Part shown: positions 152-30,697 of the stretch, piece by piece | Layout: each line of letters opens with the position of its first letter | Numbering within the stretch: position 1 is the stretch's first letter | Assembly: GCF_013344685.1 (NCBI RefSeq) | Contig: NZ_CP050137.1 | Coordinates: forward strand, 1,430,001-1,494,000 | DNA length: 64,000 nucleotides | DNA from: Sphingomonas sp. CL5.1 | Lineage (GTDB): Bacteria; Pseudomonadota; Alphaproteobacteria; Sphingomonadales; Sphingomonadaceae | Reading direction: 5' to 3' | The notes under the pieces: model-generated | Seen by the model: only the letters and a program-made list of their open reading frames with translations | What the model was told of the DNA's origin: nothing | Databases searched by the model: none | Position numbers and translations under genes: made by a program

Positions 152-3100
152 TCATCCGAGGATGAAGTCGGACTGGACGAGCGGGCCGGAAGCCTTGACG
201 TTGAGCGCGAAGTCGGCAACGCCGTCGCCATTGGTGTCGCCCATCACGTTCCAGTAGCCGCCGATTGAATCCACCCGCACTTCTCCCGCAGTATGCGAGA
301 AGGGCTTGTTGGCGATAAAGGTGAATGCGTCCTTCGCGATCGTATTGGTGTTGGCGTCGAACTGCGACAGATCGATCTTGTCGCCTTCGGCATGGCTGAA
401 ATCGAGGATGGTGTCGGTATTGGTGATGGTGTTGCCGAGATCGCCAGGGGCGAATACGAACCGGTCCGCCCCGGCGCCGCCGACCAGCGAATCCTTGCCC
501 GGGCCGCCGATCAGCACGTCGTTGCCGTTGCCACCGGAAAGATAGTCGTTGCCCGCGCCGCCGATGAGGATGTCATTGCCGTTGCCGCCGCTCAGTGAAT
601 CGTTGCCGTCTCCACCGTCAAGGTAGTCGTCGCCATCACCACCTTGCAGCACGTCGTCGCCACCGCCGCCCGAGAGGATGTTGTTGCCGGCATTGCCGGT
701 GATTATGTTCGCGGCGTCGTTGCCGGCACCATTGATATTGCCCGATCCACCCAGGCGGAGATTCTCAAGGTTCGCGCCGAGTGTGTAGCTGATCGAGCTG
801 ACGACCGTGTCGGTGCCGCCGCCGGGCAGTTCGACCACCACGTCGCCGGGATTGTCGACGACATAGGTGTCGTCGCCGTCGCCGCCGGCCATATAGTCGG
901 CCCCGGTTCCGCCATCGAGATAATCGTTGCCGGCGCCGCCGATCAGGGTGTCGTTGCCGTCATAGCCGTACAATTTGTTCGCGCCGAGGGTGCTGCCGGT
1001 GATGACGTTGTCTGCGGCGTTCCCTATGCCGGTGAACGTGCTTGATCCGGTAGCGGTCAGGTTTTCAAGGTTCGCGCCGAGCGCGTAGCTGCCGAGTGAA
1101 GTACGAACCTCGTCGATGCCGCCGCCGGGCAACTCGACCACCACATCGCCGGGATTGTCGACGATATAGGTATCATTGCCCGCGCCGCCGACCATGCGAT
1201 CCGCGCCTGTGCCGCCATCGAGATAATCGTTGCCGGCGCCGCCGATCAGGGTGTCGTTGCCGTCATAGCCGTACAGTTTGTTGCCGCCGTCGCCGCCAGT
1301 GATCACGTTGGCGAGATCGTTTCCGGTTCCGGTGAAGGCTCCGCTGCCGGTGTAGGTGAGGTTTTCGATATTCGCTCCCAGCGTGTAGCTGTCGAGCGAG
1401 GTGCGAACCTCGTCGGTGCCCCCGTTGGCCGCCTCGACCACCACGTCGCCGGGATTGTCGACGATATAGATGTCGTTGCCGGCTCCCCCCGTCATCGTAT
1501 CCGCGCCCGTGCCGCCATCGAGATAATCGTTACCGGCGCCGCCGATCAGGGTGTCGTTGCCGGCGCCGCCATACAGCTTGTTACCGCTGTTGCCGCCGGT
1601 GATTACATTGTCCAGATCGTTGCCGGTGCCGACGAAGCCGCTTTGGCCGATATAGCTCAGCGTCATAGCGCCGGATTCCAGCGTATAGCTGGAGGCGGCG
1701 GTGGTTATGTTTTGGGCGACCGGAGTTGGTTGATTTGCCGCCGGGAGGCCGGAAACATTATTCGCGGGGACGGGTCCAGATGCCTTGCTAGCCTCCGCCT
1801 GACCATTCACCGGCGCCGACCAGGCGGGCGATGCACTGTCGTAGATAGATTTTAGCGTGCCATACAGCCCGCCCGGACGATCAACCTGTGCATCGGTATA
1901 GGCGTTGAGCAGTGTCCCGCCAGCAGCCGAAAAGCTGTCGATCATCTGCGTATAGATAGTCGCCATTCGCGGATCGGCTTCGAGTCGCGAAAAGAAATCC
2001 ATTACGATCGGTTGATCAGCGGCCGAAAACCCTGCGGCGCTAAGATCAATGCCGCCTTCATATGCAACAAGATCAAGGCCATATTTTTTTGCGACCGTTG
2101 CCTGGTAAGCCCATTGCGCGATGATCGAAGGCAAGGATCCCCAGCCGGTCAACGTGCCGCCGTTAGCAATCTCATTGAAAGCGGCGTCCAGCCCGGCGCT
2201 GCCGCCTTTCGCCCAGCCAAGGATCGTTGCCCGATCCGCGCTGTTCTGGCCACTCAACTCGCTGCCGAAATAGGTGGTGACCGCATAACTCTGGAAAAGT
2301 GACGAGACGTCACCCAAGCCCGCCTTTGCGACGCCCTCAAAAATATACTTTTCCAGTCCGAGATTCGCCGTTTGGGTAGCGAGCACGTTGTCCAGGCGGG
2401 TAGCCGCGCCGTCCCCGAAGACATCATTTGCGATCGCCGCAATCTGGGCGGAGCGATAGCCGTAATATTGTTGCACGCCGCGCGTGACATTTGTGCCCCA
2501 GAGCTGGGTGGCCAGCTGGTTTGCGTAACGCGATTGTTGGAATCCCCAGTTCCACATTTCATTGGAATATTCGACATTGACCTTCAGCGAAGGATCAAGG
2601 TTGTCGCGCACATAGGTCAACATCTGGCGCACGTAATCGTCGTTCGCCTGCGTCGGTATGTTGAGCCACATGTTGGTGCGGCTTTCGTTCGCCAGCGCGA
2701 CCATCGCCTCGATCGGCACGCCCGTCGTGCTGCCGGTACTCGCCCAGGAAAGCGTGTCCGGCGTCGTCCGCTGCGACCACGAGGTGGCGGTGGTGATGTT
2801 GGTCTGTTCCCAGTCCATGTAGCGCAAGGTGCCGAATTGCGAGACTTGCTTTACGAACGCGGGATTGAACAACTCGCCCTGATTGAACAGCGCCATCTGA
2901 TCTTGCCGGACGACGTGCATCGCCGTCAGCGGATTGGAAGCGGCGATGCTGGTGATCATCACCGTCTGCATTGGATTGGCGCCGGTGACGGTAAAGGTGA
3001 TCTCGCCCGGTTTGGAGCTGACGATCGTGGCGCCCGGAATGCGGAAGGTGGCGGTTCCGGTATAGGTCAGGACATAGGTATTGTCGGTTCCGGCGGATGC

Positions 3101-3307
3101 CGGATCGAGTGCGATTATCGTCGAAACGCTGGTCGCACCGGTGGGAATTGTCGTGGGATAGCCGTTCTGATCCACGATTAGCGAGGAAACTGAAGTGCCT
3201 TGCACCCCCCAGGTGCCGGCGGTTTTCATCCTGTCGAGAAAGGGATATTCCGTGCTCCAATAGTTGACTGGAGACAAGTTGATCCCGACGGATGTAGTGT
3301 TCGACAT
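152..3307 (-). CDS. Type I-secreted RTX protein with N-terminal clan GH-A-like (putative glycosidase) domain
   Basis: The product has 1051 residues and no signal peptide, as expected for a type I substrate. Residues about 6-490 form a TIM-barrel-like domain. EYSNE at 246-250 fits the Asn-Glu acid/base of clan GH-A, and YEGG with E417 fits the nucleophile. Residues about 560-940 hold Ca-binding nonapeptides (GGAGNDTLIGG type) in three near-identical blocks of about 100 residues. The C-terminal 100 residues (DRFVFAPGD, ILDFSHAEGDKIDLSQF) match serralysin/RTX export domains. The gene lies downstream of the HlyD and ABC genes (122-bp gap), so it is the likely cargo. A CtrA-type box lies 70 bp upstream of the start. 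The GH-like domain recurs in the protein at 31925-33505. Substrate is unknown; cleavage or binding of the locus polysaccharide is an inference. Confidence 0.85.
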   Translation of the reverse strand: MSNTTSVGINLSPVNYWSTEYPFLDRMKTAGTWGVQGTSVSSLIVDQNGYPTTIPTGATSVSTIIALDPASAGTDNTYVLTYTGTATFRIPGATIVSSKPGEITFTVTGANPMQTVMITSIAASNPLTAMHVVRQDQMALFNQGELFNPAFVKQVSQFGTLRYMDWEQTNITTATSWSQRTTPDTLSWASTGSTTGVPIEAMVALANESRTNMWLNIPTQANDDYVRQMLTYVRDNLDPSLKVNVEYSNEMWNWGFQQSRYANQLATQLWGTNVTRGVQQYYGYRSAQIAAIANDVFGDGAATRLDNVLATQTANLGLEKYIFEGVAKAGLGDVSSLFQSYAVTTYFGSELSGQNSADRATILGWAKGGSAGLDAAFNEIANGGTLTGWGSLPSIIAQWAYQATVAKKYGLDLVAYEGGIDLSAAGFSAADQPIVMDFFSRLEADPRMATIYTQMIDSFSAAGGTLLNAYTDAQVDRPGGLYGTLKSIYDSASPAWSAPVNGQAEASKASGPVPANNVSGLPAANQPTPVAQNITTAASSYTLESGAMTLSYIGQSGFVGTGNDLDNVITGGNSGNKLYGGAGNDTLIGGAGNDYLDGGTGADTMTGGAGNDIYIVDNPGDVVVEAANGGTDEVRTSLDSYTLGANIENLTYTGSGAFTGTGNDLANVITGGDGGNKLYGYDGNDTLIGGAGNDYLDGGTGADRMVGGAGNDTYIVDNPGDVVVELPGGGIDEVRTSLGSYALGANLENLTATGSSTFTGIGNAADNVITGSTLGANKLYGYDGNDTLIGGAGNDYLDGGTGADYMAGGDGDDTYVVDNPGDVVVELPGGGTDTVVSSISYTLGANLENLRLGGSGNINGAGNDAANIITGNAGNNILSGGGGDDVLQGGDGDDYLDGGDGNDSLSGGNGNDILIGGAGNDYLSGGNGNDVLIGGPGKDSLVGGAGADRFVFAPGDLGNTITNTDTILDFSHAEGDKIDLSQFDANTNTIAKDAFTFIANKPFSHTAGEVRVDSIGGYWNVMGDTNGDGVADFALNVKASGPLVQSDFILG
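761..1660 (-). repeat. Three tandem 300-bp DNA repeats inside the RTX gene
   Basis: The connector encoding the LGANLENL-type motif recurs at about 761, 1061 and 1361. A block around the YLDGGTGAD motif recurs at about 911, 1214 and 1514. The period is therefore 300-303 bp (100-101 codons). Similarity is high at DNA level, so the copy number can change by homologous recombination or be mis-assembled from short reads. Confidence 0.85.
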
Positions 3308-3429: not shown

Positions 3430-4820
3430 TCACCGCTCCTTGAGCGCGTTCCCCCGCGCTTCCTCGATCGGGCTGGTGAGGTAGCTCAGGTAGCTGCGAT
3501 TGCCGGTGACGATATCGGCCACCACGGTCATCCCCGGCATCAGCGACATCAGCCGGTCGCCACGATCCACCGTGGCGCGGTCGAGCGCGACGCGGACGAT
3601 ATAGACGGTGCCGAGTTTCTCGTCGTCGATCGCGTCCGGGCTGATGCTGACCACCCGCCCCGGCACCGTGCCGTAGCGCGAGAAGGGAAAGGCATCGAGC
3701 TTCAGCGCCACCTTCTGGCCCGGCTGGACGAAGCCGGCGTCGCGGTTGAGCAGCTTCACCTCGGCGACCAGCGTATCGCCCGAAGGCACCACCGTCATGA
3801 TCGGCTTGGCCGCCTCGACCACGCCGCCCTCGGTATGCAGCGAGAGCTGGCCGACCGTGCCGTCCGCCGGCGCGCGCAGCGCCTGGAAGCCGGACCGCTG
3901 CTTCGCCTTGACCATCTCCTCCTGCCGCAGCCGCATCTCGGTGGTCGCCTTGACGAGCTGCTCGTACAGCTCGGCGCGGGCGTCGGCGCGTGACTTGGCG
4001 AGCGTGGAGGCGGCGCCCCCCGCCTGCGCCGCGGCGCGGCGGATCGCCTCGCGCGCGGCATCGCGGCTCCCGGCCTCGAGGATGCGCTGGCGGCGCATTT
4101 CCAGCACCTTGAGCCGCGAAACGAAGCCCTTCTCGAGCAATTGCTCGTTGGCGGCGATCTGCTGGTCGAGCAGCGGCAGCGACTTGTCGAGCTTCGCCAC
4201 CTCGGCGCGCGCGCTGGCGATGTCGGCGCCCGCCACGCCGCCGTTCGCGGCATTGGCGGCGATCGTCGCGCGAATGTCGGCGAGCCGCGCCCGCGCCAGC
4301 GACTCCTGCGCCGCGATCGACGCGGCGTCCGCCCCCGCCGGCGGGGTGAGGACGAGCGGCTTGCCGTCGAGCGCGTCGATCACCGCGCGGGTGCGCGCCA
4401 CTTCGAAAGCGGCGGTTTCATAGGCCTTGGCCGCCTGCGCTGCCTCCGCGCCGGATACGGTGGGATCGAGCAGGACGAGCGGCTGGCCCTTTTTCACATG
4501 GTCGCCGTCATGGACGAGGATGCGCCGCACCACGCCCGCCTCGGCCGGCTGGACGAGCTGCACCGCGCCCTTCGGCACGATCCGCCCGGTGGCGGAGGCG
4601 ATGATGTCGGTCCGCCCCAGCACCAGCCAGCCGGCGAGGAAGATGATGCCCGCCATCATCACCCGCGCGGTCAACCGCGCGGTGGGGGACACGGGGCGCT
4701 CGATCACCTCCAGCGCGGCGGGGAGGAACGCGGCGTCGTCGATACGCAGCCGCTCCGCCTCGCGCTGGCGGTCCTCGGCGAGCGCGGCCTTGACCAGCGA
4801 CCAGTTGGTGGTGAGCGCGT

Positions 4821-4824
<4 letters not shown>
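3430..4824 (-). CDS. HlyD-family type I secretion membrane fusion protein
   Basis: The 464-residue periplasmic adaptor links an inner-membrane ABC exporter to an outer-membrane channel. A cytoplasmic N-terminus of about 50 residues precedes one membrane segment (ARVMMAGIIFLAGWLVLG). A biotinyl-lipoyl-like half (EAGVVRRILVHDGDHVKKGQ) and a long alpha-hairpin region (about 120-310) follow. The C-terminal beta-barrel ends with PGMTVVADIVTGNRSYLSYL, a signature of RTX-system HlyD proteins. Its start overlaps the ABC gene stop by 4 bases, so the two are translationally coupled. The arrangement resembles atrD/atrB beside sphingan clusters. No TolC homologue is adjacent; a distant outer-membrane factor must be used. 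Confidence 0.93.
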
Positions 4825-6992
<2,168 letters not shown>

Positions 6993-7111: not shown

Positions 7112-7126
7112 GAACATATCAGGAAC
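7112..7126. promoter_or_regulatory. LexA (SOS)-type box, GAAC-N7-GAAC
   Basis: GAAC-ATATCAG-GAAC is an exact match to the alphaproteobacterial LexA direct-repeat motif. It is centred about 60 bp upstream of the spike-base-like start at 7179, in the divergent intergenic region. One or two chance matches per 64 kb are expected, so position is the main support. Confidence 0.4.
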
Positions 7127-7178: not shown

Positions 7179-7448
7179 ATGCCGATCGATCCTTTCGCCC
7201 AGTTCAGCGACGCGGTTGTCGCCCCGGCCGGCGCGCCGTTCGCGGTGACGCCTAGTGACGCCACGCCGCTGCCGGTGGTGCCCAAGGCGCTCTATGTCGG
7301 CACCGCCGGCGATGTCGTGCTGCGCGGCGTCGCCGGAACGGGCGACGTGACGTTCCGCAACGTCGCCGCCGGGCAGGTGATCGACGTCCGCGCCGGTTTC
7401 GTGCGCGCGACCGGCACCACCGCCGCCGATATCGTGGCGTTGGCGTGA
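7179..7448 (+). CDS. GTA head-spike base protein-like (RCAP_Rcc01079 family)
   Basis: The 89-residue protein has no signal peptide or membrane segment. Its C-terminal two thirds (KALYVGTAGDVVLRG, VTFRNVAAGQVIDVRA, ATGTTAADIVAL) matches, from memory, the small family typified by Rhodobacter capsulatus Rcc01079 (GhsA), the base of the gene transfer agent head spike. The SD AAGGGAG precedes the ATG by 8 bases. The stop overlaps the next ATG (TGATG), so it is coupled to the lectin/SGNH gene. No other phage structural gene is in the window. An alternative is a domesticated surface protein unrelated to GTA particles. A LexA-type box lies upstream. Confidence 0.65.
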   Translation: MPIDPFAQFSDAVVAPAGAPFAVTPSDATPLPVVPKALYVGTAGDVVLRGVAGTGDVTFRNVAAGQVIDVRAGFVRATGTTAADIVALA

Positions 7449-8788
7449 TGTCGTTGGGTTTCGCGCTCGGCGCGCGGGCGCGGCGGGGAGGATTGGCGTC
7501 GCCGCCGCCGGCCGTCGCCGCCCTGCCGCAGCAGGCGGCGATCGTCGCCCGCTGGTCGGCGGACGAAATTCCGTCGCAGGCCGACAACAGCGCCCTCGCC
7601 GGCTGGACCGACAGTGTCGGTGGTCTCGTGGCGGCGCAGGCGACCGCTGCCGCGCAGCCGAAATATCGCGTCGGCGGAGCGGGCGGCAAGCCTTATGTGC
7701 TCTTCTCGGGAGCGCAATATCTCGACGCGGGGACCAGCAACGCGGTGGCAAGCGCTTGCCAATCGGCGACGAGCAGCGCGTTCGTTGTCTGCCGCAACGT
7801 GCAGGCATCCAGTTTCGGCTTCCTGTTCACCGCGTCGAACTCGACCGGCTATAACCTGTTCGCCAACGGGGCGCAGGCCGGCTTCTTCGGCAACGGGCTG
7901 GGGCGTTGCCCTTATGCCGGGAGCGGGCTGACCACGCTGGGCTATACCGCCGGGCGGCCGGAGACGACGTCCGCACGCTACTTCGTCAACAACAGTTGCG
8001 TCACCCATCTCGGCAAGCTGACGGCGGCGGCGGGGCACAATGTCGGCATCGGCGGATCGCCGGCCACCCCCGCCACCGCCGCCAAGGCCGAGATCTATGA
8101 GGTGATCGTCTGGAACCGGGCGCTGACCGCCGCCGAGATGATGCAGGTCGAGATATGGGCGCGCGGCAAATATGCCGCTCCCTTGCCATGGGCGGGCGGA
8201 CCGTTCCGCCTGTTCCACGGCGACAGCCTGACCAACGGCTACAGCATGACGGCCCCGCTCAACAGCTATCCGGCGAAGGTGGCGGCGATGAACGGCTGGA
8301 GCCTGGGTACGTGGACCAACCTCGGCCATGTCGGCATATCCATGACAGCGATGGATGCCGAGGCGGCGGCGGAGATCGATCCGATGCTGGCGCTGCTCGG
8401 TTCCACCCCGGCCCATCTCGCGGCTTGGGAATGGTATAACCAGCGCGGCCTGTCGACCGCCGTGGCCACGGCCGCGACCGAAGGTTATTTCCGTGCGCGG
8501 CGCGCGGCGGGCGTTGCGAAGCTGGTGTTGTTGACCAGCACCGACGCCGCCGATCCGTTCGACCTTCCGGCGGCGCGGGCGGCATATAATGGCTATTTCG
8601 ATGTCAACGGGCCGGATTTCTGCGACGCCTATGTCGCGCTCCATGCCGATGCGATGATCGGCGTGGAAGGAGCTTGTCCAAACGCCGCGCCTTACGGCCC
8701 CACTTTCCATAGCGACGGCATCCACCTCACCGACGCGGGCTATGCCGTGCTGGCGGGCATCGTCGCGCCGGTCATGGCGGCGCTGTGA
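7448..8788 (+). CDS. LamG-like lectin + SGNH/GDSL hydrolase, candidate spike fibre
   Basis: The 446-residue protein starts at the ATG overlapping the previous stop; a GTG one codon earlier is possible. Residues about 30-235 resemble a concanavalin/LamG jelly roll (ARWSADEIPSQAD, AEIYEVIVWNRALTAAEM). Residues about 250-446 are an SGNH hydrolase, with FHGDSLTNG (block I) and HSDGIHLTDAGY (block V Asp-His). Such domains remove acyl groups from polysaccharides, and the locus encodes several EPS acyltransferases. No signal peptide is seen, which suits a virion-like or lysis-released protein more than ordinary Sec export. In R. capsulatus the gene after ghsA encodes GhsB, the capsule-binding spike fibre; equivalence here is inferred from gene order. 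Confidence 0.75.
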   Translation: MSLGFALGARARRGGLASPPPAVAALPQQAAIVARWSADEIPSQADNSALAGWTDSVGGLVAAQATAAAQPKYRVGGAGGKPYVLFSGAQYLDAGTSNAVASACQSATSSAFVVCRNVQASSFGFLFTASNSTGYNLFANGAQAGFFGNGLGRCPYAGSGLTTLGYTAGRPETTSARYFVNNSCVTHLGKLTAAAGHNVGIGGSPATPATAAKAEIYEVIVWNRALTAAEMMQVEIWARGKYAAPLPWAGGPFRLFHGDSLTNGYSMTAPLNSYPAKVAAMNGWSLGTWTNLGHVGISMTAMDAEAAAEIDPMLALLGSTPAHLAAWEWYNQRGLSTAVATAATEGYFRARRAAGVAKLVLLTSTDAADPFDLPAARAAYNGYFDVNGPDFCDAYVALHADAMIGVEGACPNAAPYGPTFHSDGIHLTDAGYAVLAGIVAPVMAAL

Positions 8789-8837: not shown

Positions 8838-9083
8838 CTATTTCCTGCGGAGGATGTCGGGCTTCAGGATGTGGAAGATATAGCCGATCACCGCGGCGAG
8901 CACGAGCACCGCGACGAGATGGTTGCCCTCGTTGCCGAAATAGTTCGCCACCGCGCAGCCGATCGCCGGCGGCAGATATTGCCAGAGCCGATCCGACGGC
9001 TCCTCATGCGATGACCGCTGTAGCAGCAGCACAACGAGGCCGGCGAAGATCGCGACGGAGATCCAGTCGTAGGCCGTCTGCAT
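8838..9083 (-). CDS. XrtV sorting-system accessory protein
   Basis: The 81-residue protein has two hydrophobic segments (ISVAIFAGLVVLLL and LVAVLVLAAVIGYIFHIL) flanking the conserved LWQYLPPAIGCAVANYFGNE. The ATG at 9083 is preceded by GGGAG and begins MQTAYDW; a longer frame upstream reads through a hairpin and looks non-coding. It lies divergent from xrtV and is the full-length paralogue of the truncated gene at 2-133. It is probably an inner-membrane partner of the exosortase. The function is uncharacterised as far as I know. Confidence 0.7.
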   Translation of the reverse strand: MQTAYDWISVAIFAGLVVLLLQRSSHEEPSDRLWQYLPPAIGCAVANYFGNEGNHLVAVLVLAAVIGYIFHILKPDILRRK

Positions 9084-9304: not shown

Positions 9305-9380
9305 CCAAGGGACCTCCGATAAAAAATGCCCAAGGGAAAGTCGGCGAGTATCGCGGTGATCTGCCTGTGCCCTTGGGAGG
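9305..9380 (+). promoter_or_regulatory. xrtV leader with possible SD-sequestering pairing
   Basis: The Shine-Dalgarno GGGAGG at 9375-9380 precedes a GTG start at 9391. The overlapping CCCTTGGG (9370-9377) is the inverse of CCCAAGGG at 9329-9336, and ACCTCC at 9312-9317 is a perfect anti-SD. Translation of xrtV could therefore be limited by leader folding. Confidence 0.3.
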
Positions 9381-9390
9381 TGTTTCCACC

Positions 9391-10278
9391 GTGGATTCCG
9401 GTCTGCTGGCGCAAAGATCGCAGACACCGATCGACTGGGTCCGATCCAGGCCGCTGCTGATTCTGGGACTGCTGGCGATCGTCATTCCGGTGATGATCCG
9501 GGTAGGGCAGGAAAGCTGGTCGACGGAGCAGGGCGCGCACGGGCCGATCGTGCTTGCGACGGGCCTTTGGCTGCTGAGCCGCGAGTGGGGGCGGGCGGCG
9601 GCGCTGGCCCGGCCGGGATCATGGCTGGCCGGCACGGCGCTGCTCGCCGTGCTGCTGCCGCTCTATATCTTCGCGCGGGTGACGAGCATCGTCGAGATCG
9701 AGGGCGCGGCGATGTACGCCATCGTGCTGACGGCCGCGTACCTGCTGTGGGGTGCGGCTTCGCTCCGCGTGGTGTGGTTCCCGCTCGTCTATCTGCTGTT
9801 CATGTTCCCGCCGCCCGACACGTTGTTCGCGATGCTGACCCAGCCGCTGAAGATCGCCATCTCGCAATGGGCGGTGACGATCCTGCACGCGGCCGGCTAT
9901 CCGATCGCGGGATCGGGCGTGACGATCCAGATCGGTCAATATGACATGCTGGTGGCGGCGGCCTGCGCCGGGCTGAATTCGATGATCAGCCTGACGGCGC
10001 TCGGCCTGTTCTACATCTATATCCGGCACAGCGCGAACTGGCGCTACATGCTGTTCCTGTTGGCATGCATCCTGCCGGTGGCAATCGTGGCGAACCTGAT
10101 CCGCGTGCTGATCCTGCTGCTCGTCACCTATCATTTCGGTGAGGCGGCGGGGCAGGGCTTCATTCACGAGGCGGCCGGGCTGACGATGTTCATGACGGCG
10201 CTGCTCGGTATCTTCCTGATCGACAGTCTGGCGCGGCCGCTGCGCGATCGGCTCGCGGCGCGGGGGGCGGCGGCATGA
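9391..10278 (+). CDS. xrtV: Exosortase V (XrtV)
   Basis: The 295-residue polytopic inner-membrane cysteine transpeptidase belongs to the exosortase/archaeosortase family, which cleaves C-terminal sorting signals. About eight membrane helices are seen. The catalytic triad positions are visible: C192 in AAACAGLNS, R238 in NLIRVLI and H259 in GFIHEAAGL. I chose GTG 9391 because GGGAGG sits 10 bases upstream; GTG 9367 is in frame but lacks an SD. The stop overlaps the EpsI-like start by 4 bases. The subfamily (V) is assigned from overall appearance and the adjacent accessory protein, so it is less sure than the family. No protein with a recognisable PEP-CTERM-like tail is encoded in the window. 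Confidence 0.85.
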   Translation: MDSGLLAQRSQTPIDWVRSRPLLILGLLAIVIPVMIRVGQESWSTEQGAHGPIVLATGLWLLSREWGRAAALARPGSWLAGTALLAVLLPLYIFARVTSIVEIEGAAMYAIVLTAAYLLWGAASLRVVWFPLVYLLFMFPPPDTLFAMLTQPLKIAISQWAVTILHAAGYPIAGSGVTIQIGQYDMLVAAACAGLNSMISLTALGLFYIYIRHSANWRYMLFLLACILPVAIVANLIRVLILLLVTYHFGEAAGQGFIHEAAGLTMFMTALLGIFLIDSLARPLRDRLAARGAAA

Positions 10279-11006
10279 ACGAGGAAAGCTGGCTGCGGCG
10301 CGCCGAACAACAGGGCGAGTCGCGGACGACGCGGCGCGAGATGCTGCTCGGCGGCGCGCTGCTGGCGACGGCGGCGGCGGGCTTCGCGCTGATGCCGCGC
10401 CGGGTGGAGAAGCTGCTCGGCGACGCCAAGCTCGACAAGCTGGTGCCGGAGAATTTCGCCGGCTGGCGCTATCAGGCGGCCAGCGGGTTGGTGCTGCCGC
10501 CGGCCGACCAGCTTCGCGACAAGATCTACAGCCAGTTCGTCACGCGCGCCTATACGCGCGCCGACGGCGCGGCGGTGATGCTGCTCATCGCCTATAGCGG
10601 CGCACAGGACGGCACGATCCAGGTCCATCGACCCGAAATCTGCTATCCGGCGAGTGGTTATAAGCTGACCCAGATCGCCGGGCATGAGACGCCGCTGGCG
10701 CCGGGTCTCACCATCCCCTCGCGCTATATCGTCGCGGAGGCCGACTTGCGGCGCGAGCAGCTTATCTACTGGACGCGCGTGGGCGATTATTTCCCGGCGA
10801 AATGGTCGGCGCAGCGCTTGGCGGTGATCAAGGAAAATTTTTCCGGCGTCATCCCGGACGGCGTGCTGGTGCGGATGTCGGCAGTCGGCGCGGACGATGC
10901 GCGCGGGTTGCTCGACAGCTTTGCGCGCGATCTCTACGCCGCCGTCGGCCCGCGCCTGCGTCAGGTGCTGGTCGGGTTGGACCGTGCAGGCATGCAATTG
11001 AAATGA
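10275..11006 (+). CDS. EpsI-domain exosortase-associated protein
   Basis: The 243-residue protein has a twin-arginine-like signal (TRREMLLGGALLATAAAGFA) and an EpsI domain whose hallmark HRPEICYPASGY lies at 118-129. In exosortase/EPS loci EpsI is either a separate protein, as here, or fused to the exosortase; its biochemical role is unsettled. It overlaps xrtV by ATGA, so the two are translationally coupled. The stop is 26 bases before the foldase start, consistent with one operon of xrtV, this gene and the EpsD-like gene, closed by the terminator at 11912-11947. Confidence 0.85.
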   Translation: MNEESWLRRAEQQGESRTTRREMLLGGALLATAAAGFALMPRRVEKLLGDAKLDKLVPENFAGWRYQAASGLVLPPADQLRDKIYSQFVTRAYTRADGAAVMLLIAYSGAQDGTIQVHRPEICYPASGYKLTQIAGHETPLAPGLTIPSRYIVAEADLRREQLIYWTRVGDYFPAKWSAQRLAVIKENFSGVIPDGVLVRMSAVGADDARGLLDSFARDLYAAVGPRLRQVLVGLDRAGMQLK

Positions 11007-13637: not shown

Positions 13638-14261
13638 ATGCGGCGTAAAGCATGGAAGATGGCTGCGGGCCTCGCTTGTGCCGGTCTGGTGCACGGGCCG
13701 GCGGCGATGGCGCAGGGAGGCGCCCCGGCCGCCTCGACGTCCACTCCCCCGGCGCAGCTTCGCGCCTATCGGATCAGTCCGGGCGACGAGCTTGAGGTCT
13801 ACGTCTGGGGCGAGGACAAGCTCCAGCGCGATATAAAGGTGCTGCCGGACGGCACCTTCTCCTTCCCGCTGGTCGGGCAGGTCAATGCCAACAACAAATT
13901 GCCGTCGGAGGTGGAGCAGGAGATCACGCGCGGGCTGCGTAGCCAGTTCCGCGATGCCGTGCCGCAGGTGACGGTGTCGGTGAAGACGCCGGTGGGCGTG
14001 CAATTCTCGGTCGCCGGCAAGGTGCGCTCGCCGGGCGCCTTCGCCACCGGCCGTTATGTCAACGTGCTGGAGGCGCTCGCGCTGGCCGGCGGTCCGGGGG
14101 ATTTCGCCGATCTCGGCAATGTCCGCATCCTGCGCAAGTCCGGCAATGGCCTGACGGTCATCAAGGTGCGCCTGACCGACATCATGAAGGGTAATCCCAG
14201 CGATCGGGATCTCGCCGGCCTGCCGCAGCTCGAGAGCGGCGATACGGTGGTCGTACCGTGA
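13638..14261 (+). CDS. Wza/EpsE-family polysaccharide export protein
   Basis: The 207-residue protein has a Sec signal ending AMAQ, a polysaccharide export domain (YRISPGDELEVYVWGEDKL) and one SLBB domain (FSVAGKVRSPGAFATGRYVNV). It forms the periplasmic/outer-membrane part of the export channel. It is much shorter than E. coli Wza (379) and has no lipobox or C-terminal amphipathic helix, as in EpsE/GelD-type proteins that rely on a separate barrel, here the next gene. AGGGG precedes the ATG. It is first in a four-gene operon, overlapping the barrel gene by GTGA. Confidence 0.9.
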   Translation: MRRKAWKMAAGLACAGLVHGPAAMAQGGAPAASTSTPPAQLRAYRISPGDELEVYVWGEDKLQRDIKVLPDGTFSFPLVGQVNANNKLPSEVEQEITRGLRSQFRDAVPQVTVSVKTPVGVQFSVAGKVRSPGAFATGRYVNVLEALALAGGPGDFADLGNVRILRKSGNGLTVIKVRLTDIMKGNPSDRDLAGLPQLESGDTVVVP

Positions 14262-15445
14262 AGCTACGCTGGTATGGCTGTGTGGCCGCGGCCGCGCTGA
14301 TCGCGCCCGGCGTCGCGCAGGCGCAGGAGGAGACTCGCGCCAGCATCGATGTTTCGCCGAACGTCGGATATTCGTCGAACCCCTTTTCAGGAACCGGCAA
14401 CGATCTGGGCAGCGGCTATGCGGCGGTCGATATCGCGCCGCAGCTTCAGCTGCTGACGGCGCGCGACATCCTCACCGTTTCGGGAATGGCCAGCATCAAG
14501 GAATATTTCCAGCATTATGCGGAAGCATCCAGCTATAACGTCAGCGCCGATTATGCCGGACGCCCGTCGGAACGGGTGAACACGCATGTGCGGATGGACC
14601 TGTCGAGCGCGATCGTCGGCGCCTATGATACCGTGGGAGACCTGCTGACGAATCCGGCCGCGGGCGTGCCGCCGCCAACCGATCTTGCGCTGTACGGCTC
14701 GCGCGATCGCCGCCGGCGCGTCTATGTCACCGGCGATTTCAATATCGCGTTGTCGGAGCATGACAAGATCAACGTCAGTTCGTTCTACGAATCGACGCGC
14801 TATCGCAGCTTTGGCGATGCGAGCAATTATGACGGCTATGGCAGCACCTTCGGCTATTCCCGTCAGATCTCGGCCGCTACCAGTGTCGGTTTGCAAGGTT
14901 CGCTGGCGCGTTACGTCTATCCGGGGCAGCGCGGCGACACGCGGGTGATCTCCACGCAGGCCACGGCATCTACCCGGCTCGGCCCGTTCTGGACGCTGGA
15001 CGGCGCGGTCGGCGTTTCGTTTGTCGACAGCAGCACCTTCGGGTCGACGCACAAGGCCTCCCTTTCCGGCAACGCGACCTTGTGCCGGAAGACCGACCGC
15101 ACGAACTTGTGCTTCGTCGCATCGCGGTCGGTGCGGCCGACCGGCTTCAATGGCACGCAATATGTGAACATGTTCGGTATCGACGGCAGCCGGAAGCTCA
15201 GCGAGCACGACACGATTTCCCTCCACGCCGCCTATACCACCGAGGCGGGATCGCGTTCCCTGGTGCTGCCGGGCCTCAACACCCGTTTCCTGCTGGTGTC
15301 GGCGATGTTCGAACGTCGTTTGTCGGAACGGCTGCGCGTCTCGGCAATGGGACAATATCGCAACATCTTTACCGATATTTATAGCCGCCCCGCCGATATC
15401 GGCGGGCGAATCGGCCTGTCTTACCGTTTCGGAGATTTGCAATGA
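14258..15445 (+). CDS. Outer-membrane beta-barrel protein of EPS export
   Basis: The 395-residue protein starts with GTG overlapping the previous stop. A signal peptide ends about AQAQ. The rest is alternating beta-strand sequence rich in aromatic-ended strands (VGYSSNPFSGTG, GYGSTFGYSRQISAA, IGLSYRFGD at the C-terminus), consistent with a 14-18-strand barrel. The SNPF motif near the start is typical of barrel proteins in exosortase EPS clusters. It probably provides the outer-membrane pore missing from the short Wza-type protein. It overlaps the chain-length gene by ATGA. Confidence 0.8.
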   Translation: MKLRWYGCVAAAALIAPGVAQAQEETRASIDVSPNVGYSSNPFSGTGNDLGSGYAAVDIAPQLQLLTARDILTVSGMASIKEYFQHYAEASSYNVSADYAGRPSERVNTHVRMDLSSAIVGAYDTVGDLLTNPAAGVPPPTDLALYGSRDRRRRVYVTGDFNIALSEHDKINVSSFYESTRYRSFGDASNYDGYGSTFGYSRQISAATSVGLQGSLARYVYPGQRGDTRVISTQATASTRLGPFWTLDGAVGVSFVDSSTFGSTHKASLSGNATLCRKTDRTNLCFVASRSVRPTGFNGTQYVNMFGIDGSRKLSEHDTISLHAAYTTEAGSRSLVLPGLNTRFLLVSAMFERRLSERLRVSAMGQYRNIFTDIYSRPADIGGRIGLSYRFGDLQ

Positions 15446-16896
15446 CCGATAGCGGGCGGACCGGCTACGACGATCAGGAAGCGGCCTCGACCGGGTTGCT
15501 CGGCAATCTGCCGATGATCCTGTGGCAGCGCCGCTGGTTCGTGATCGTGCCGGCGGTGCTGATCGCGGTCGCCGCCGTCGCGGCGGCATTCCTGCTGCCG
15601 CGCAAATATGAGTCCAAGGCCACCCTGCTGGTCGAATCGCAGGATTTGCCGGGCGCGCAGCCCGGCGCGGCGAACGACGATCCGATCGACCGCCGCATGG
15701 CCAAGATCCGCCAGCAGATCCTGGCCCGGCCTGATCTGGTCGAACTGATCCAGGCCAACGATCTCTACAACGCCTCCGCGCACAGCGAGCCACTGTCGAA
15801 ACTGGTCGACCGGATGCGCGATGCGACGACGATCAGCGCGATCGATGCCGATATCCAGCGGGGGGCGTCGTCGGGCAAGCCGGGCAGCGGGTCCATCGCC
15901 TTTTCGCTCTCCTTCTCGTATCCGCGCGCGGCGCAGGCGCAGATCGTCGCGCAGACCTTCGTCGATCGCCTGCTCAAGCTTTCGACCACCTCGACGCAAC
16001 AGGAAGCACAGACCAACGTGTCCTTCCTGGAGGATCAGGAATCGAACCTTCAGGCGCAGGTGCAGGCGATCGAATCGCAGATCAACCACATCGCCGGGAT
16101 CAATGGCGCGGCGCTGTCGGCGGCCGGGCTTGGGATGGTCGGCGCCGGCGCGTCGGTCGATTATGCCGGCCAGATCGCGGCATTGCAGCGCGAGAACGCC
16201 ACGCTCGGCGCACAGGTGCAGAGTGGCGTGGGCGTGGAACGCGATCCGGCGGTCGCCGCCGCCGAAGCCGCGCTCGCCGCCGCCAAGGCGAAATATTCCG
16301 ACGATCACCCGGATGTGAAGTCGGCGGAGCGGCTGCTCAAGGCGGCGCGCGACAATTCAAAGCAATATCAGGTCCGCGGTGTCTATAGCGTCGTGCAGCA
16401 GCAGATCGCGGCCAACAACCGGGCGATCGCCGATCTCGAGCGGCAGCGCGGCGCCGAGCAGAGCCGCGCCGCCGCGCTGGCCGCCGCGCAGGCGCGCGGG
16501 CCGCAGGTCACGCAGCAGGTGCAGCAGCTTCAGGCGCGGGCGGATATCATCCGCGCCAATCTGTCGAAGGTTTCCGCCAACCTGCTCACCGCGCGCTCGG
16601 TGGCGAAGCTGGCCGATCAGCAGCGTGGCGAACGGCTGACGCTGATCGATCCGCCGGTGACGCCGGACCATCCCACCTCGCCGAACCGGCCATTGCTGAT
16701 CGCGGGTGGCATCGCGGGCGGTCTATTGGTCGGCCTGGCGCTGGCGTTCCTGATCGAGCTGATCCTGCGGCCGATTCGCAGCGTCGGCCAGCTCACCAAT
16801 CTGCTGGGCGAGGCGCCGCTTGCGGTTGTTCCCGTCCTGTCCCGCAAGCGCAAGCGGAGCCGCTGGGTGCCGCGACGCTTTGCCCGCTCCGCTTGA
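15442..16896 (+). CDS. Wzz/GelC-type chain-length determinant protein
   Basis: The 484-residue inner-membrane polysaccharide co-polymerase has two membrane helices (FVIVPAVLIAVAAVAAAFLL near 30-50, LLIAGGIAGGLLVGLALAFL near 425-445) around a long periplasmic coiled-coil region. It has no kinase domain; the ATP-binding partner is the next gene, the split Wzc arrangement known from gellan GelC/GelE. The proline-rich segment before the second helix (DPPVTPDHPTSPNRP) is typical of Wzz. It controls chain length and couples polymerisation to export. Confidence 0.9.
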   Translation: MTDSGRTGYDDQEAASTGLLGNLPMILWQRRWFVIVPAVLIAVAAVAAAFLLPRKYESKATLLVESQDLPGAQPGAANDDPIDRRMAKIRQQILARPDLVELIQANDLYNASAHSEPLSKLVDRMRDATTISAIDADIQRGASSGKPGSGSIAFSLSFSYPRAAQAQIVAQTFVDRLLKLSTTSTQQEAQTNVSFLEDQESNLQAQVQAIESQINHIAGINGAALSAAGLGMVGAGASVDYAGQIAALQRENATLGAQVQSGVGVERDPAVAAAEAALAAAKAKYSDDHPDVKSAERLLKAARDNSKQYQVRGVYSVVQQQIAANNRAIADLERQRGAEQSRAAALAAAQARGPQVTQQVQQLQARADIIRANLSKVSANLLTARSVAKLADQQRGERLTLIDPPVTPDHPTSPNRPLLIAGGIAGGLLVGLALAFLIELILRPIRSVGQLTNLLGEAPLAVVPVLSRKRKRSRWVPRRFARSA

Positions 16897-16908
16897 GCGG
16901 TTGAGAAG

Positions 16909-17730
16909 ATGAGACCCGAATCCATGTCCAATTCGTGGAAGCTTGACGCGATCGACAGTGCCGCACCACCGCCGCGCGAGGTGCTCGGCGGCTCGCTGGC
17001 GGACGAGCGGCTGGAACTGCCCGACGCGACCCAGCGCAAATTGTTCGGCTTCAACAGCAGCGATCGCCGCTCGCGGCCGTTCAACCTGCTCCGTTCGCAG
17101 GTGCTGAAGATCGCCAAGGCGAACGGCTGGAAGATCATCGGCGTCACCTCCGCGACGCCCGATGTCGGCAAGACCTTCATCGCCAGCAATCTCGCCGCAT
17201 CGATGTCGCGCATCCCGGACCAATATACGTTGCTGTTCGATTTCGACTTGCGGCGCAGCTCGGTCGGCAAATGTTTCGGCCTGGAGGAAGGGCCGGGGAT
17301 CGGTGACTATCTTACCGGCGAAACCGATACGCTCGACGCGGTGGGCCACAATGTCGCCGGCACCGGCCTGATCGTCTTTCCGGCCGCGCAGATCGTCCGG
17401 CAATCCGCCGAGGCGCTGGCCGGCAACCGCATGAAAAGCCTGATCGAGGCAATGCGCGGGCTGGGCGAGAATTGCTTCTGCCTGTGCGATCTGCCGCCGG
17501 CCTTCGCCAATGACGATGCATCGATCGTCGTGCAGCAGATCGACGCTTACCTGTTGGTGGTGGAGGAAGGCAAGACGACCGCGCGGCAGGTGCGCGACGC
17601 GATGGAGGTGCTCAGCCCGGCGCCGTGCATCGGCACCGTGCTCAATCGCTATCACGGCGCGATCGGTGGGGACGATTACGGCTTCGGTTATTGGACGCAG
17701 CGTTATTACGACGCTTATTATCAGGAATAG
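16909..17730 (+). CDS. BY-kinase-like ATPase (GelE/CpsD type)
   Basis: The 273-residue cytoplasmic partner of the Wzz-like protein has a modified Walker A (TSATPDVGKTF, K88), Walker A' (LLFDFDLRRSS) and Walker B (CLCDLPPAF). The C-terminus is a tyrosine cluster (YGFGYWTQRYYDAYYQE, six Tyr), the autophosphorylation tail of bacterial tyrosine kinases. PDVGKT instead of the usual PGEGKS and the extra Phe in Walker A' are deviations but keep the key residues. It starts 12 bases after the Wzz-like stop; ATG 16924 is an alternative start. It is last in the export operon, its stop 3 bases from the convergent glycosyltransferase gene. Confidence 0.88.
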   Translation: MRPESMSNSWKLDAIDSAAPPPREVLGGSLADERLELPDATQRKLFGFNSSDRRSRPFNLLRSQVLKIAKANGWKIIGVTSATPDVGKTFIASNLAASMSRIPDQYTLLFDFDLRRSSVGKCFGLEEGPGIGDYLTGETDTLDAVGHNVAGTGLIVFPAAQIVRQSAEALAGNRMKSLIEAMRGLGENCFCLCDLPPAFANDDASIVVQQIDAYLLVVEEGKTTARQVRDAMEVLSPAPCIGTVLNRYHGAIGGDDYGFGYWTQRYYDAYYQE

Positions 17731-17733
17731 GGT

Positions 17734-18894
17734 TTAGCGCGCGCCCAGCGCCGCCCGCACGTCGGCGTTATAACGGGCGAGGCTGGTCGCCGGATCGAAC
17801 GTCGCGAACAGGCGCGGCGCGGCGGCGGCGATCACGGCGCGCATCTCGACGGTGCGCGCATCCAGATCGAGGATCGCGGCGGCGATCGCCTTCGCGTCAC
17901 GCGGCGGCACGGCGCGGCCCACGTCCAGCCCGTCGAGATAGCCGTCGATCGCGGTGCCGCGCGTGAACAGGATCGGCACGCCGGCGAACAACGCCTCGAC
18001 ATAGACCATGCCGAATGTCTCGTTGAGGCTCGGGAGCAGCAGCGCGCGATAATGCGGCAGGCGCGCGAGCAGTTCGGCATTGGGCAGCGGCCCGACCAGG
18101 GTGACCGCTTCCGCCAGTCCGCGCGCGGCGATCATCCGCTCGACGTGCGCGCGCGATTCCGCGCTGCCGCCGCCGATCAGGTCGAGCTTCAGGTCCGGCC
18201 GCTCGCGCCGCGCGAGCGCCAGCCCGTCGAGCAGCCAGCGCACGCCCTTGCGCTTCCACGTATCGAGCGCGAGGATCGCGACGAAGCGGTCGCCGGGCGG
18301 CTGCGGCGCGATCGCGGGCGCGATGTTGCGGACGATATTGGGGAGGTTGCGCTCCTTGTCCGGCTGCGCGGGCACGTAGCGGTGGAATTCCTCGCGGAAC
18401 CACGCGGAGACGAAATAGAGCCGTGCCGCCCCCGCCGCCACGCGCCGCAGCAGCGGGCGGAGCGTTGGCTTCATGCGGAACACCTTCGTCTCCACCTCGC
18501 CGCGCAGCGAGACGAACAGCGGCACGCCGAAATGGCGCGCGATCTCGCGCCCGGCCAGCCCCTCGAAGGTGAATTTGTGCGCGTGGACGAGATCGGGGCG
18601 GATGCCTTGCGCCTCCAGCAGCGCGATCGTGCGTTTCGCCGCGCGGCGCATCGCCGGCAGCAGGCCGATGCCGAGGCGCAAGCCGAAATAGGGGAAATGG
18701 AACAGCCGGAAGCCCTGCGCCGCGCATTCCACCGGGGCGGAAACGGGGCGCTCGCGGCGCTGATAGGCGATGACGACATTGTCGTAATCGCCCAGCTCGC
18801 GCACGAACCATTCGATCGCGTTGGTCGTCTTCGGCCGCTGCGGCGTGTTCACGTCGACGGCGAGGTGGAGGATGACGGGGCGGCGCTCGCTCAT
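17734..18894 (-). CDS. Glycosyltransferase family 4
   Basis: The 386-residue GT-B enzyme has an N-terminal domain (HLAVDVNTPQRPKTTNAIEW, DLVHAHKFTFEG) and a C-terminal nucleotide-sugar domain with LNETFGMVYVEALFAG, the retaining GT4 E-x7-E motif. The donor and acceptor cannot be read from sequence; it probably adds one sugar of the EPS repeat on the cytoplasmic face. ATG 18894 overlaps the stop of the WecG-type gene by 4 bases. It is third in a minus-strand operon (GT4, WecG-type, GT4). Confidence 0.88.
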   Translation of the reverse strand: MSERRPVILHLAVDVNTPQRPKTTNAIEWFVRELGDYDNVVIAYQRRERPVSAPVECAAQGFRLFHFPYFGLRLGIGLLPAMRRAAKRTIALLEAQGIRPDLVHAHKFTFEGLAGREIARHFGVPLFVSLRGEVETKVFRMKPTLRPLLRRVAAGAARLYFVSAWFREEFHRYVPAQPDKERNLPNIVRNIAPAIAPQPPGDRFVAILALDTWKRKGVRWLLDGLALARRERPDLKLDLIGGGSAESRAHVERMIAARGLAEAVTLVGPLPNAELLARLPHYRALLLPSLNETFGMVYVEALFAGVPILFTRGTAIDGYLDGLDVGRAVPPRDAKAIAAAILDLDARTVEMRAVIAAAAPRLFATFDPATSLARYNADVRAALGAR

Positions 18895-19631
18895 CGCCGC
18901 GCACGCCGCCAGCGCCATACCATCGGGAAGATCGCCGGCCCTTCGACCAGATAGCGGCGCGCGAGCCGGCGCGGGCTGGTGGCGAGCCGCCACGCCCATT
19001 CCATCCCCATCCGCTGCACCGCGCGGGGCGCGCGCGCCTGCCGCCCGACGAGGAAATCGACCGACGCGCCGATGCACAGGGCGGTGCCCCGCGCGCCCGC
19101 GATCGCGCCGATCTCGCGCGCCAGCATCTCCTGTTGCGGTGAGCCGACCGCGAGCAGGATCGCGCGCGCGCCCGCCGCCACCGCCGCGCGGGCCGCCGCC
19201 GCGCGGGCCGCCGCGTCGGTGCGCAGCCCCATCGGTGGCTGGTGATGAACGATATCGAGCGCGGGGTGGAGCGCGCGCAGCCGGACGGCATCCTCCGTCT
19301 CCCCGCCGATCAGGCACAACCGGTCGCCCGGCCGCAGCACATGCGCGAACAAAGCGGCGGTGAGATCGCTGCCCGGCACCACCGGCAGCGTCACCCCCGC
19401 CAGCCGCGCCAGCCGTGCCAGCACCCGGCTGTCGCACAGGCAGAGCGCCGCGTCGCGATAGGCCGCCGTCACTTCCGCCGGCGCATCGGCCAGCCGCACC
19501 ATATGATCGACGTTGGGGGTGACGACATAGCCATAGGCGCTGTCCGCATCGCGCGCCGCGAGCCATGCCACCGCCGCCCCGAACGGCAGCGGATCGAATT
19601 CGGTGCCGAGGAATTCGGTGCGCGCCGTCAT
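18891..19631 (-). CDS. WecG/TagA/CpsF-family glycosyltransferase (GT26)
   Basis: The 246-residue protein has the family core: VVTPNVDHMVRLAD (PN-D motif), ALCLCDSRVLARLA, LIGGETEDAVR and LLAVGSPQQEMLA. Members transfer ManNAc, ManNAcA or glucose-type residues to lipid-linked acceptors and often add the second sugar of a repeat. The Arg-rich C-terminal region (AWRLATSPRRLARRYL) is the membrane-association tail of this family. ATGA overlaps on both sides show tight coupling with the two GT4 genes. Confidence 0.88.
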   Translation of the reverse strand: MTARTEFLGTEFDPLPFGAAVAWLAARDADSAYGYVVTPNVDHMVRLADAPAEVTAAYRDAALCLCDSRVLARLARLAGVTLPVVPGSDLTAALFAHVLRPGDRLCLIGGETEDAVRLRALHPALDIVHHQPPMGLRTDAAARAAAARAAVAAGARAILLAVGSPQQEMLAREIGAIAGARGTALCIGASVDFLVGRQARAPRAVQRMGMEWAWRLATSPRRLARRYLVEGPAIFPMVWRWRRARR

Positions 19632-20809
19632 CCCGCCGCCGTCGCGAAGGCGCGCTCCAGCCGCGCGAGGTTCACCGCGTCGGAAAATTCCTCCGTGACG
19701 AAGACCCGGGCGGCATGGCCGAGCCGCTGGCGCTCGTCCGGGTCCGCGGTGAGGCGCGCGATCAGCGCGGCGATTGCCCCGGCGTCGTCGGGCGGGGCGA
19801 GCAGGCCGGTCTCGCCGTCGCTCACCAACTCGCGGATCGTCGGCAGGTCGCCCGCGATCACCGCGCGGCCGGCGGCCATCGCCTCCATCAGCACCACCGG
19901 GATGCCGTCGCGATCGTCGTTGGTCGCGGTGCGGCAGGGGAGGACGAACAGCCCGGCGGTAGCGATCGCCGCGAGGCAATCAGCATGCGGCCGCGCCCCA
20001 TCGAACGTCACCCGCCCACCGATGCCGAGCGCGGCGACCTGCGCCTCCAGCTTCGCCCGTTCCGGCCCGTCGCCGAGGATGCGCAGGATCCATCCCTCAG
20101 GCGCGGCGCGGTGGAAGGCGTCGATCAAGAGGTCGATGCCTTTCTTGGCGACCAGCCGCGCGACGATGACGATCTCGCGTCGCTCCGCCGCCACTTCCGG
20201 CGGGATCGCGACCGAGCAGCGCACCACCGGCAGCCGCTCCTCCCCGATCGTGGTGATCGAGCGGTAGAAGCCGCGATGCCAATGGCTGATGCACGACACG
20301 AAAGCCGCTTCGTCCAGCTTGAAGGCGAGCGCGGCGCGCTGCACGAACAGGTCGGCGGCGTGGCCGGTGAAGCTGAACGGCACGCCCAGCGTCCGCGCGA
20401 TATAGAGCGCGATCATCGCCGGCACGTTCGCCATATGCGCATGGACCGCGCCGATCCCGCGCCCGCGCAGCCGCCAGCCGGTCGCGATGCCGAAGCCGGC
20501 CTGCGCGACATGCTTCAGCCGACTCCTGAGCGAGGAATGGTCGGCCGTGAAGGCATCGCGGATCGCGCGCGCCGCCAGCAGCGGATGGCGCAGCAGCGCG
20601 ATCGGCAGCGCCAATGTGGTGGCGGGTGCATAGATCACCACCGCCTCGCGCGCGATCTTTGCCAGCAGCGGGTCGTCGGTAGCGAGTGGCCGATGGACGC
20701 TGGCGCCGATCACTTCCCGCCCGCGCGCGCGCAGCCCGAGCAATTCGCGATAGACGAACGTCTCCGAAAGCGTCGGCAGGCGGGCGGCGACATAGAGGAT
20801 GGCGGTCAT
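19628..20809 (-). CDS. Glycosyltransferase family 4 (WcaL-like)
   Basis: The 393-residue GT4 enzyme has the N-terminal RLPTLSETFVYRELLGLRARG feature of WcaL/AmsK-type transferases, FTGHAADLF and the donor motif DGIPVVLMEAMAAG. ATG 20809 is chosen; an in-frame ATG at 20830 would add seven residues and neither has a strong SD. It is first in the three-gene minus operon, and a 114-bp gap separates it from the divergent GT2 operon. It probably works on the lipid-linked EPS intermediate; sugar specificity is unknown. Confidence 0.86.
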   Translation of the reverse strand: MTAILYVAARLPTLSETFVYRELLGLRARGREVIGASVHRPLATDDPLLAKIAREAVVIYAPATTLALPIALLRHPLLAARAIRDAFTADHSSLRSRLKHVAQAGFGIATGWRLRGRGIGAVHAHMANVPAMIALYIARTLGVPFSFTGHAADLFVQRAALAFKLDEAAFVSCISHWHRGFYRSITTIGEERLPVVRCSVAIPPEVAAERREIVIVARLVAKKGIDLLIDAFHRAAPEGWILRILGDGPERAKLEAQVAALGIGGRVTFDGARPHADCLAAIATAGLFVLPCRTATNDDRDGIPVVLMEAMAAGRAVIAGDLPTIRELVSDGETGLLAPPDDAGAIAALIARLTADPDERQRLGHAARVFVTEEFSDAVNLARLERAFATAAG

Positions 20810-20923
20810 GGTCAGGCCGTCATTCACCATCGGACTGGGCCGTATCCCGGTGATTTCATTCGCGGGATCGCGGCCGGTGGGGATCGGTAGGGCTTTGACA
20901 AGGAAGTCCGTCCTAAGCAAGAG

Positions 20924-23576: not shown

Positions 23577-23671
23577 TGGAATCGGGACAGATAGCGCATG
23601 TTGCGACGCAAAAAGAAATCGACAGTCGTGGCGGGCGGGAGCATCACGGTCCGCGCCCGGGGAGCAAGGCG

Positions 23672-29114: not shown

Positions 29115-29143
29115 CGTCGGCGAAGCGGCGGTGGACGTCACGC

Positions 29144-30535: not shown

Positions 30536-30697
30536 TTACCCAACCTGCCCGTCCGTAGCGCCCGAAGAAAAGCCACCCGCACCCTGCCGAGCGGGAGGGG
30601 CGAGCGACGAACATCTTCGCATCCAAAACCTTACTAGGGTCAGGACCCATTGATATGAGAAGCGCGATCTGATTCAGGCTCCGTGAGGAGACTGAGA

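Follow-up and report, generated by a model that had tools for sequence, protein, structure and literature searches.

The head-spike base gene (7179..7448, plus strand) and the head-spike fibre gene (7448..8788, plus strand) of Sphingomonas sp. CL5.1 probably represent the head-spike module of the genome's own gene transfer agent (GTA) of the Rhodobacter capsulatus type (RcGTA), which is kept outside the GTA cluster in an exopolysaccharide (EPS) locus. Coordinates given without a handle refer to the window, the whole stretch of 64,000 nucleotides analysed here. The pair is almost certainly a GTA spike, because it fits RcGTA in the family and fold of the base, in the order of the two genes, and in the start of the fibre. 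This reading had been put forward in the first-pass annotation, and it is strengthened by an RcGTA-like base and fibre start, by a GTA cluster in the same genome, and by a megatron match in 43 of the 47 genomes where the spike lies outside the GTA cluster.

Spike Base and Fibre Proteins

The base gene encodes an 89-aa protein, the only spike base in the whole genome. It matches the NCBIfam model NF048002, an equivalog named “spike base protein, RCAP_Rcc01079 family”, at 101.3 bits (cut-off 28) over model positions 1–84 of 85, and contains both ALYVGTAGD and ATGTTAADIVAL, as described earlier for this product. Its best PDB sequence match is the RcGTA base Rcc01079 (6tb9, E 1e-10), which is also the top PDB match of the predicted structure in Foldseek (E 2.5e-6, TM 0.79/0.84); the model (pLDDT 80.7) matches the beta-sandwich/jellyroll fold of the solved base. 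The second Foldseek match is 8cjz, a phage capsid chain. Comparison with the RcGTA spike structure had been proposed in the first-pass annotation, whose idea would have suffered from the lack of a structural match to spike proteins; for the base, the sequence and structure searches both give 6tb9 first. By homology and fold, the protein belongs to the capsid-bound base family.

The base stop codon TGA (7446–7448) overlaps the fibre ATG at 7448 by 1 nt (TGATG, 7446–7450), and both this stop-start coupling and the gene end at 8788 are as first described. The fibre protein (446 aa) starts with MSLGFALGA; its model (pLDDT 88.7) has disordered residues 1–20, followed by a lectin-like (LamG/ConA) beta domain and an SGNH hydrolase domain. 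This LamG-like plus SGNH architecture, previously read from the translation, is upheld by fold prediction and Foldseek, while both Pfam matches are below the curated cut-offs. Since the PF13472 score is sub-threshold (18.9 bits, cut-off 32.9), the SGNH assignment is based on the Foldseek match. The SGNH motifs are GDSL (258–261), N331, and DGIH (423–426); in an alignment of 18 homologue rows, G258, D259, S260, D423, and H426 are invariant and N331 is nearly so. Residues 37–254 match a “virion structural protein” PHROG (E 1.2e-6), and a PDB sequence search with the fibre gave no significant match to any chain.

The residues SLGFALGA at fibre positions 2–9 form an alternating hydrophobic/Gly pattern, comparable to IALGLGLGL, the hydrophobic/Gly-alternating N-terminal anchor of the Rcc01080 fibre given in PMC7296036. 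Judging by this sequence pattern, the fibre N-terminus appears similar to the Gly/hydrophobic stretch which, in RcGTA, runs through five pockets of the pentameric base. Patterns of this anchor type were found in 54 of 78 fibres vs. 116 of 1465 other proteins, and 24 of the 78 fibres have none; this count leaves out 12 loci in which the fibre was duplicate, split, or doubtful. Two of the patterns, SG..GG and FGN, are present in 14/78 and 5/78 fibres, respectively, and in none of the 1465 other proteins.

GTA Cluster of the Same Genome

A search of the same genome for a GTA capsid cluster, suggested in the first-pass annotation, revealed one PF05065 capsid, sited in an RcGTA-type cluster which is roughly 0.82 Mb away from the pair; the search covered the PF05065 family alone. 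In this cluster (L003), genes for terminase, portal, capsid, tail, short tape measure, hub, and megatron proteins follow in this order, and it also contains adaptor, tail tube, and distal tail genes. The megatron match of 391 bits is under the 800-bit cut-off, which is reached in 0/149 genomes of the family, the megatron being matched in 115/149. The genome's own megatron (L003:4987-10558) has 709 aa vs. 1299 model positions, and its two matched pieces skip the middle of the model. In the distal tail protein of the same cluster (751 aa), the TIGR02217 domain is C-terminal and preceded by a long N-terminal part. Domain exchange may have occurred between these two genes.

EPS Locus around the Pair

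As previously noted, the pair is placed between type I secretion genes and xrtV, and profile matches of the flanking proteins confirm this. The HlyD and HlyB genes of the type I secretion system (T1SS; 3430..6992, minus strand; TIGR01843, TIGR01846) are divergent from the pair, and behind them a gene (152..3307, minus strand) encodes a 1051-aa RTX calcium-binding repeat protein (PF00353, 2.7e-46), which is the probable T1SS cargo. On the other side there are genes for an XrtV sorting-system accessory protein (8838..9083, minus strand; NF045607, 119.6 bits, cut-off 35, scanned with a longer start) and for the exosortase XrtV with an EpsI-type DUF3485 protein (9367..11006, plus strand; NF035943, 374 bits; PF11984). 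The EPS genes assigned by Pfam run downstream of the pair to about 38 kb on mixed strands. They encode a Wza-type export protein, Wzz/Wzc, glycosyltransferases, WecG, and a hexapeptide transferase (13659..24919), followed by four acyltransferase-3 proteins, a priming sugar transferase, and a Wzx-type flippase (25827..38357). The four acyltransferase-3 genes make an acylated polymer plausible. The statement that the pair has no other phage genes beside it also stood, as a scan of five flanking proteins revealed no phage protein.

This arrangement permits another interpretation: the pair could be an EPS-tailoring system without a GTA role, in which the SGNH protein would be exported, e.g., by the adjacent T1SS, and would edit the polymer, the base being a phage-derived carrier. 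The location of the pair between the T1SS genes and the EPS locus agrees with this, as do the conserved SGNH catalytic residues and the EPS-placed spikes in three genomes without a megatron match (G041, G079, and G383; the match in G287 is weak and partial). However, PF00353 RTX repeats gave no match in the fibre, the adjoining RTX protein is the likelier T1SS cargo, a crude check for export signals found no long hydrophobic N-terminal stretch in base or fibre, and the partner protein falls into a capsid-bound base family by both sequence and fold. We regard EPS tailoring as improbable, and the pair is treated below as a GTA spike module.

Several further observations concern this locus. The RTX protein adjoins the spike pair, and a homologue of an RTX-like protein was reported to repress RcGTA expression (PMC10218006). 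A transposase-like gene appears by eye to be split over two ORFs within the EPS locus (30698–31455). Linkage to xrtV as a general rule was rejected: among the 12 genomes with spike base and XrtV both above cut-off, the two are at most 10 kb apart in one, the present genome, and on different contigs in six. Within the genus (11 genomes), Sphingomonas sp. CL5.1 alone has an above-cut-off XrtV, and weaker relatives occur in G311 (219 bits, EPS-placed spike) and G335 (122 bits, no spike match).

Placement of Spike Genes across the Family

In the family survey of 397 genomes, the spike base was matched in 73 and exceeded the cut-off in 67. Placement, scored by the position of the base relative to megatron and Wza matches, was counted in the 59 genomes with a base of at least 70 bits (the eight others of the 67 are all below 70 bits). 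The base lies at most 15 kb from a Wza gene in 38 genomes, inside the GTA cluster in 12, and elsewhere in nine, so the survey of EPS loci proposed in the first-pass annotation gave a positive answer. Regions no more than 15 kb from a Wza gene make up 2.8% of the 59 genomes, hence 2.8% is the expectation, and the 38 Wza-near bases span 16 genus codes. The enrichment of spikes near Wza is large, although the loci are related to one another and a binomial probability can therefore not be taken as a true p-value. Among the nine genomes placed “elsewhere”, G227 has its base 15.6 kb from Wza, while the spikes of G048 and G316 are surrounded by EPS-type genes.

Gene calls point in the same direction. 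At least two EPS genes were detected in 36/70 non-GTA spike loci, in 0/40 control windows, and in 0/18 GTA capsid/portal loci, and at least one in 50/70 non-GTA loci and 2/40 controls. These loci extend up to 20 kb, the controls are evenly spaced windows from 10 genomes, and genes of the window served as seeds for the EPS profiles; nine non-GTA loci with fewer than eight called genes were left out. Four duplicate loci (L109, L110, L115, and L152) were removed from these counts as well as from the LexA and tree counts.

A megatron match is present in 43 of the 47 genomes with a spike outside the GTA cluster vs. 92 of the 123 genomes in which no spike exceeds the cut-off, the latter coming from a 149-genome sample (Fisher p 0.019, kinship ignored). 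The first-pass annotation had held that its idea would fail if the pair were found mainly in genomes lacking GTA or phage genes and carried Sec signals; the 43/47 share and the export check, crude as it is, point the other way. Within the genus, the spike of G205 is GTA-internal, and those of G000 and G311 are EPS-placed.

Some loci show other settings. The genome G046, which has no megatron match, resembles a prophage locus by eye. In L070, L074, L146, L158, and L161, the spike cassette is neither in an EPS nor in a GTA setting, and several of them have small lysis-like ORFs behind it (holin/spanin-like by eye); L070 and L074 have a nearby gene which we take to be dapB-like. In L078:6022-12392, the pair is between a 653-aa and a 740-aa ORF, both large, whose N-termini resemble each other. 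The Sphingomonas phyllosphaerae/endophytica-type loci L112, L136, L144, L148, and L162 share an uncharacterised conserved neighbourhood 3' of the pair, with ORFs of about 541, 321, 440, and 290–322 aa; L112, L144, and L148 have a LexA box.

Fibre Diversity and Co-Inheritance with the Coat

The fibre ORFs behind the bases are extremely diverse: mean column identity across 63 sequences is 8%, and the clearest part of their majority consensus is the MxxxGFGxG start. The family search covered these 63 of the 90 listed fibres, with L063 and L151 represented by the second ORF behind the base. At E 0.01, the Pfam matches were Lipase_GDSL_2 (20), Lipase_GDSL (9), SASA (4), Laminin_G_3 (4), SGNH (3), and arabinofuranosidase (3), and family members can overlap. 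SGNH-like motifs were found in 26/63 non-GTA fibres, 5/16 GTA fibres, and 54/828 background proteins. Acyltransferases in the 10-kb flanks occur at 2/26 SGNH-fibre loci vs. 3/37 others, five in all being too few for a comparison.

According to the first-pass annotation, capsule synthesis and receptor recognition would travel as one unit. The evidence on this claim is mixed. Fibre similarity tracks shared flanking genes (rho 0.47 over 1596 locus pairs), and 32 of the 49 fibre-similar pairs share at least three of them. On the other side, fibres are unrelated in 53 of the 91 pairs sharing at least three flanking genes, e.g., L085/L092 with bases about 90% identical. Since fibres differ while flanks and base stay alike, the fibre is swapped on a conserved base. 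The flank comparison is limited to 10 kb, which misses most specificity genes.

These data also bear on the possibility that the pair is a true GTA spike module for which the EPS locus is merely a landing site, variable and insert-tolerant, with synthesis and recognition functionally unlinked. The 53 pairs with unrelated fibres in shared flanks fit this possibility, as do the 17 fibre-similar pairs with fewer than three shared flanking genes and the non-conserved linkage to xrtV. In contrast, the recurrence of Wza adjacency in 38/59 genomes across 16 genus codes, and the adjacency with co-regulation of spike and capsule genes described for R. capsulatus (PMC10218006), speak for a functional connection. 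We treat the landing site as a serious alternative, although not a probable one, and favour a spike module linked to its EPS locus.

LexA Box Upstream of the Pair

The putative LexA/SOS box GAAC-N7-GAAC (GTTC-N7-GTTC on the minus strand) is found at 7112..7126, 52 bp upstream of the base start, with the sequence GAACATATCAGGAAC. GTTC-N7-GTTC is supported as the sphingomonad LexA box because it precedes recA in 22/22 sphingomonad genomes, its distance to the P-loop codons being 316 to 338 bp. Alphaproteobacterial LexA sites are sorted into GTTC and GAAC consensus motifs in PMC6473078. Since 1.37 exact boxes are expected in a shuffled 64-kb window, the lone box is weak evidence, and its recurrence across loci carries the argument. 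The exact box is present within 100 bp upstream of 24/71 non-GTA-internal spikes, 0/17 GTA-internal spikes, and 9/1378 other genes, the enrichment at non-GTA-internal spikes having an odds ratio of 78 (p 1.6e-26). With one mismatch allowed over the same distance, the respective values are 32/71, 1/17, and 87/1378, and 4/15 for TerS. The spike gene was uncalled in 9/101 loci, which are absent from the LexA and tree counts.

No exact box was detected within 400 bp upstream of the genome's own GTA cluster start or in the cluster region, nor in 16 other TerS upstream regions (300 bp, one duplicate). In Dinoroseobacter shibae, LexA sites at GTA genes were predicted in silico (PMC6473078). The narrower pattern GAACATANNNNGAAC has three sites in the genome, recA not being among them; by eye, the other two are near an ATPase-like ORF (G000:C1:444380) and just upstream of an RmuC-like gene (3049307). 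SOS control of the spike pair appears rather plausible from these sequence patterns.

Base Phylogeny and Phage Relatives

In the base tree, the GTA-internal bases form a group from which most EPS-placed ones are separate. With weak support (71), the window's base and that of L083 are placed on the GTA side next to L084, a prophage-like locus; the tree is built on 89 columns, 45 of its 85 inner branches are unresolved, and its root was not inferred. The EPS label requires five changes against all other groups, and EPS-placed spikes do not form one clean lineage. The idea that spikes jumped repeatedly and recently between the GTA cluster and EPS loci is not supported, as the EPS vs. GTA label needs one change on this poorly resolved, unrooted tree. 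Considering the megatron-less genomes, the kinship-blind association, and the tree split, we infer rather than observe that EPS-placed spikes belong to the GTA particle.

The base family is also present in phages, and the second-nearest tree row is the prophage-like L084, which is compatible with a prophage remnant or “moron”, i.e., leftover phage spike genes now idle or serving other phages. Yet both ORFs are open with the fibre active site conserved, the genome has no PF05065 capsid beyond the GTA cluster (PF05065 being the only family searched), and L083, with 87% base identity, keeps the order T1SS-spike-fibre-XrtV-Wza (it was found among the best 80 of 116 matches). Such a remnant is very improbable.

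Among relatives, the base is located directly behind the GTA capsid in L063–L067, L232, L239, and L240, and in IMG/VR directly behind a GTA-type capsid in 57 of the best 80 of 118 contigs. Of these best 80 “viral” contigs (L252–L331), 64 look like GTA clusters and not viruses, namely the 57 capsid-adjacent ones and seven with at least three GTA genes. The phage-like contigs L254 and L262 have two spike-base genes side by side. The window's base is matched at E ≤ 1e-3 by five of 50,697 phage records. If the base originated beside the capsid, this would agree with the phage-like contigs in which it follows head genes.

Proposed Role of the Spike

The transfer of genes by GTAs is believed to take place between kin, but to our knowledge, what decides the recipients is poorly known outside Rhodobacter. 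We suggest that base pentamers would sit on the capsid vertices when the GTA is made, each holding one fibre, and that the lectin-like domain would grip the surface polysaccharide of kin cells. The target of the spike is probably the polymer which this locus or kin cells produce. The SGNH domain could de-acylate this polymer, a step which we hold slightly more doubtful than probable; stripping of acyl groups would allow the particle to bind reversibly or to move through the coat. Through the LexA box, SOS induction would raise the spike supply upon DNA damage. The data suggest that the particle's recognition tool is stored beside the coat which it probably recognises.

A wider generalisation, which is speculative and rather unlikely, is that many sphingomonad spikes reside outside the GTA cluster in polysaccharide loci under SOS control, that recombination can exchange spike and coat jointly, and that transfer is thereby kept within a coat type in a “greenbeard”-like manner, with enzymatic fibres editing the coat. 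The coat-locus spikes of 38/59 genomes suggest a testable rule, that coat type sets the gene-transfer partners. Moreover, the variable fibres, many of which carry SGNH hydrolase motifs, provide candidates for proteins that bind or de-acylate polysaccharides, and the LexA box would tie the receptor-binding equipment of GTA to DNA damage.

Comparison with Known Systems

A search on sphingomonad GTA or head spikes together with capsule, receptor, or exopolysaccharide revealed no report within the literature searched, and the words “spike” and “polysaccharide” are absent from PMC9765227, which treats Sphingomonadales GTA genes. In outline, the idea is not new: the capsule genes of R. capsulatus adjoin the head-spike genes and are co-regulated with them, and the RcGTA head-spike fibre binds the capsule, according to PMC10218006. 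The additions to the Rhodobacter arrangement, unfound in the literature searched, are the family-wide EPS recurrence, the hydrolase fibres, and the LexA box.

The window's pair and Rcc01079/Rcc01080 have in common the base family and fold, the base-fibre pairing, the Gly/hydrophobic fibre N-terminus, and a location outside the main GTA cluster beside polysaccharide genes. They differ in the fibre, which in the window has 446 aa with an SGNH hydrolase domain vs. 325 aa in RcGTA (PMC7296036), and in the neighbours, the window's pair being flanked by T1SS genes and by an EPS locus that includes XrtV. Directly upstream of the window's pair there is a LexA box.

GTA-internal sphingomonad spikes (e.g., L063–L067 and L232) have the same base family as the window, with a variable fibre behind it in most; they are located between the capsid and the head-tail adaptor, lack the exact LexA box (0/17), and form one tree group.

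Phage head or tail spikes with carbohydrate-active tips have a conserved anchor on which the tip, catalytic or lectin-like, can be exchanged. The window's module resembles them in having a conserved anchor and a swappable tip, but differs from them in that it is located in an EPS locus of the host, where the scan of flanking proteins revealed no phage gene.
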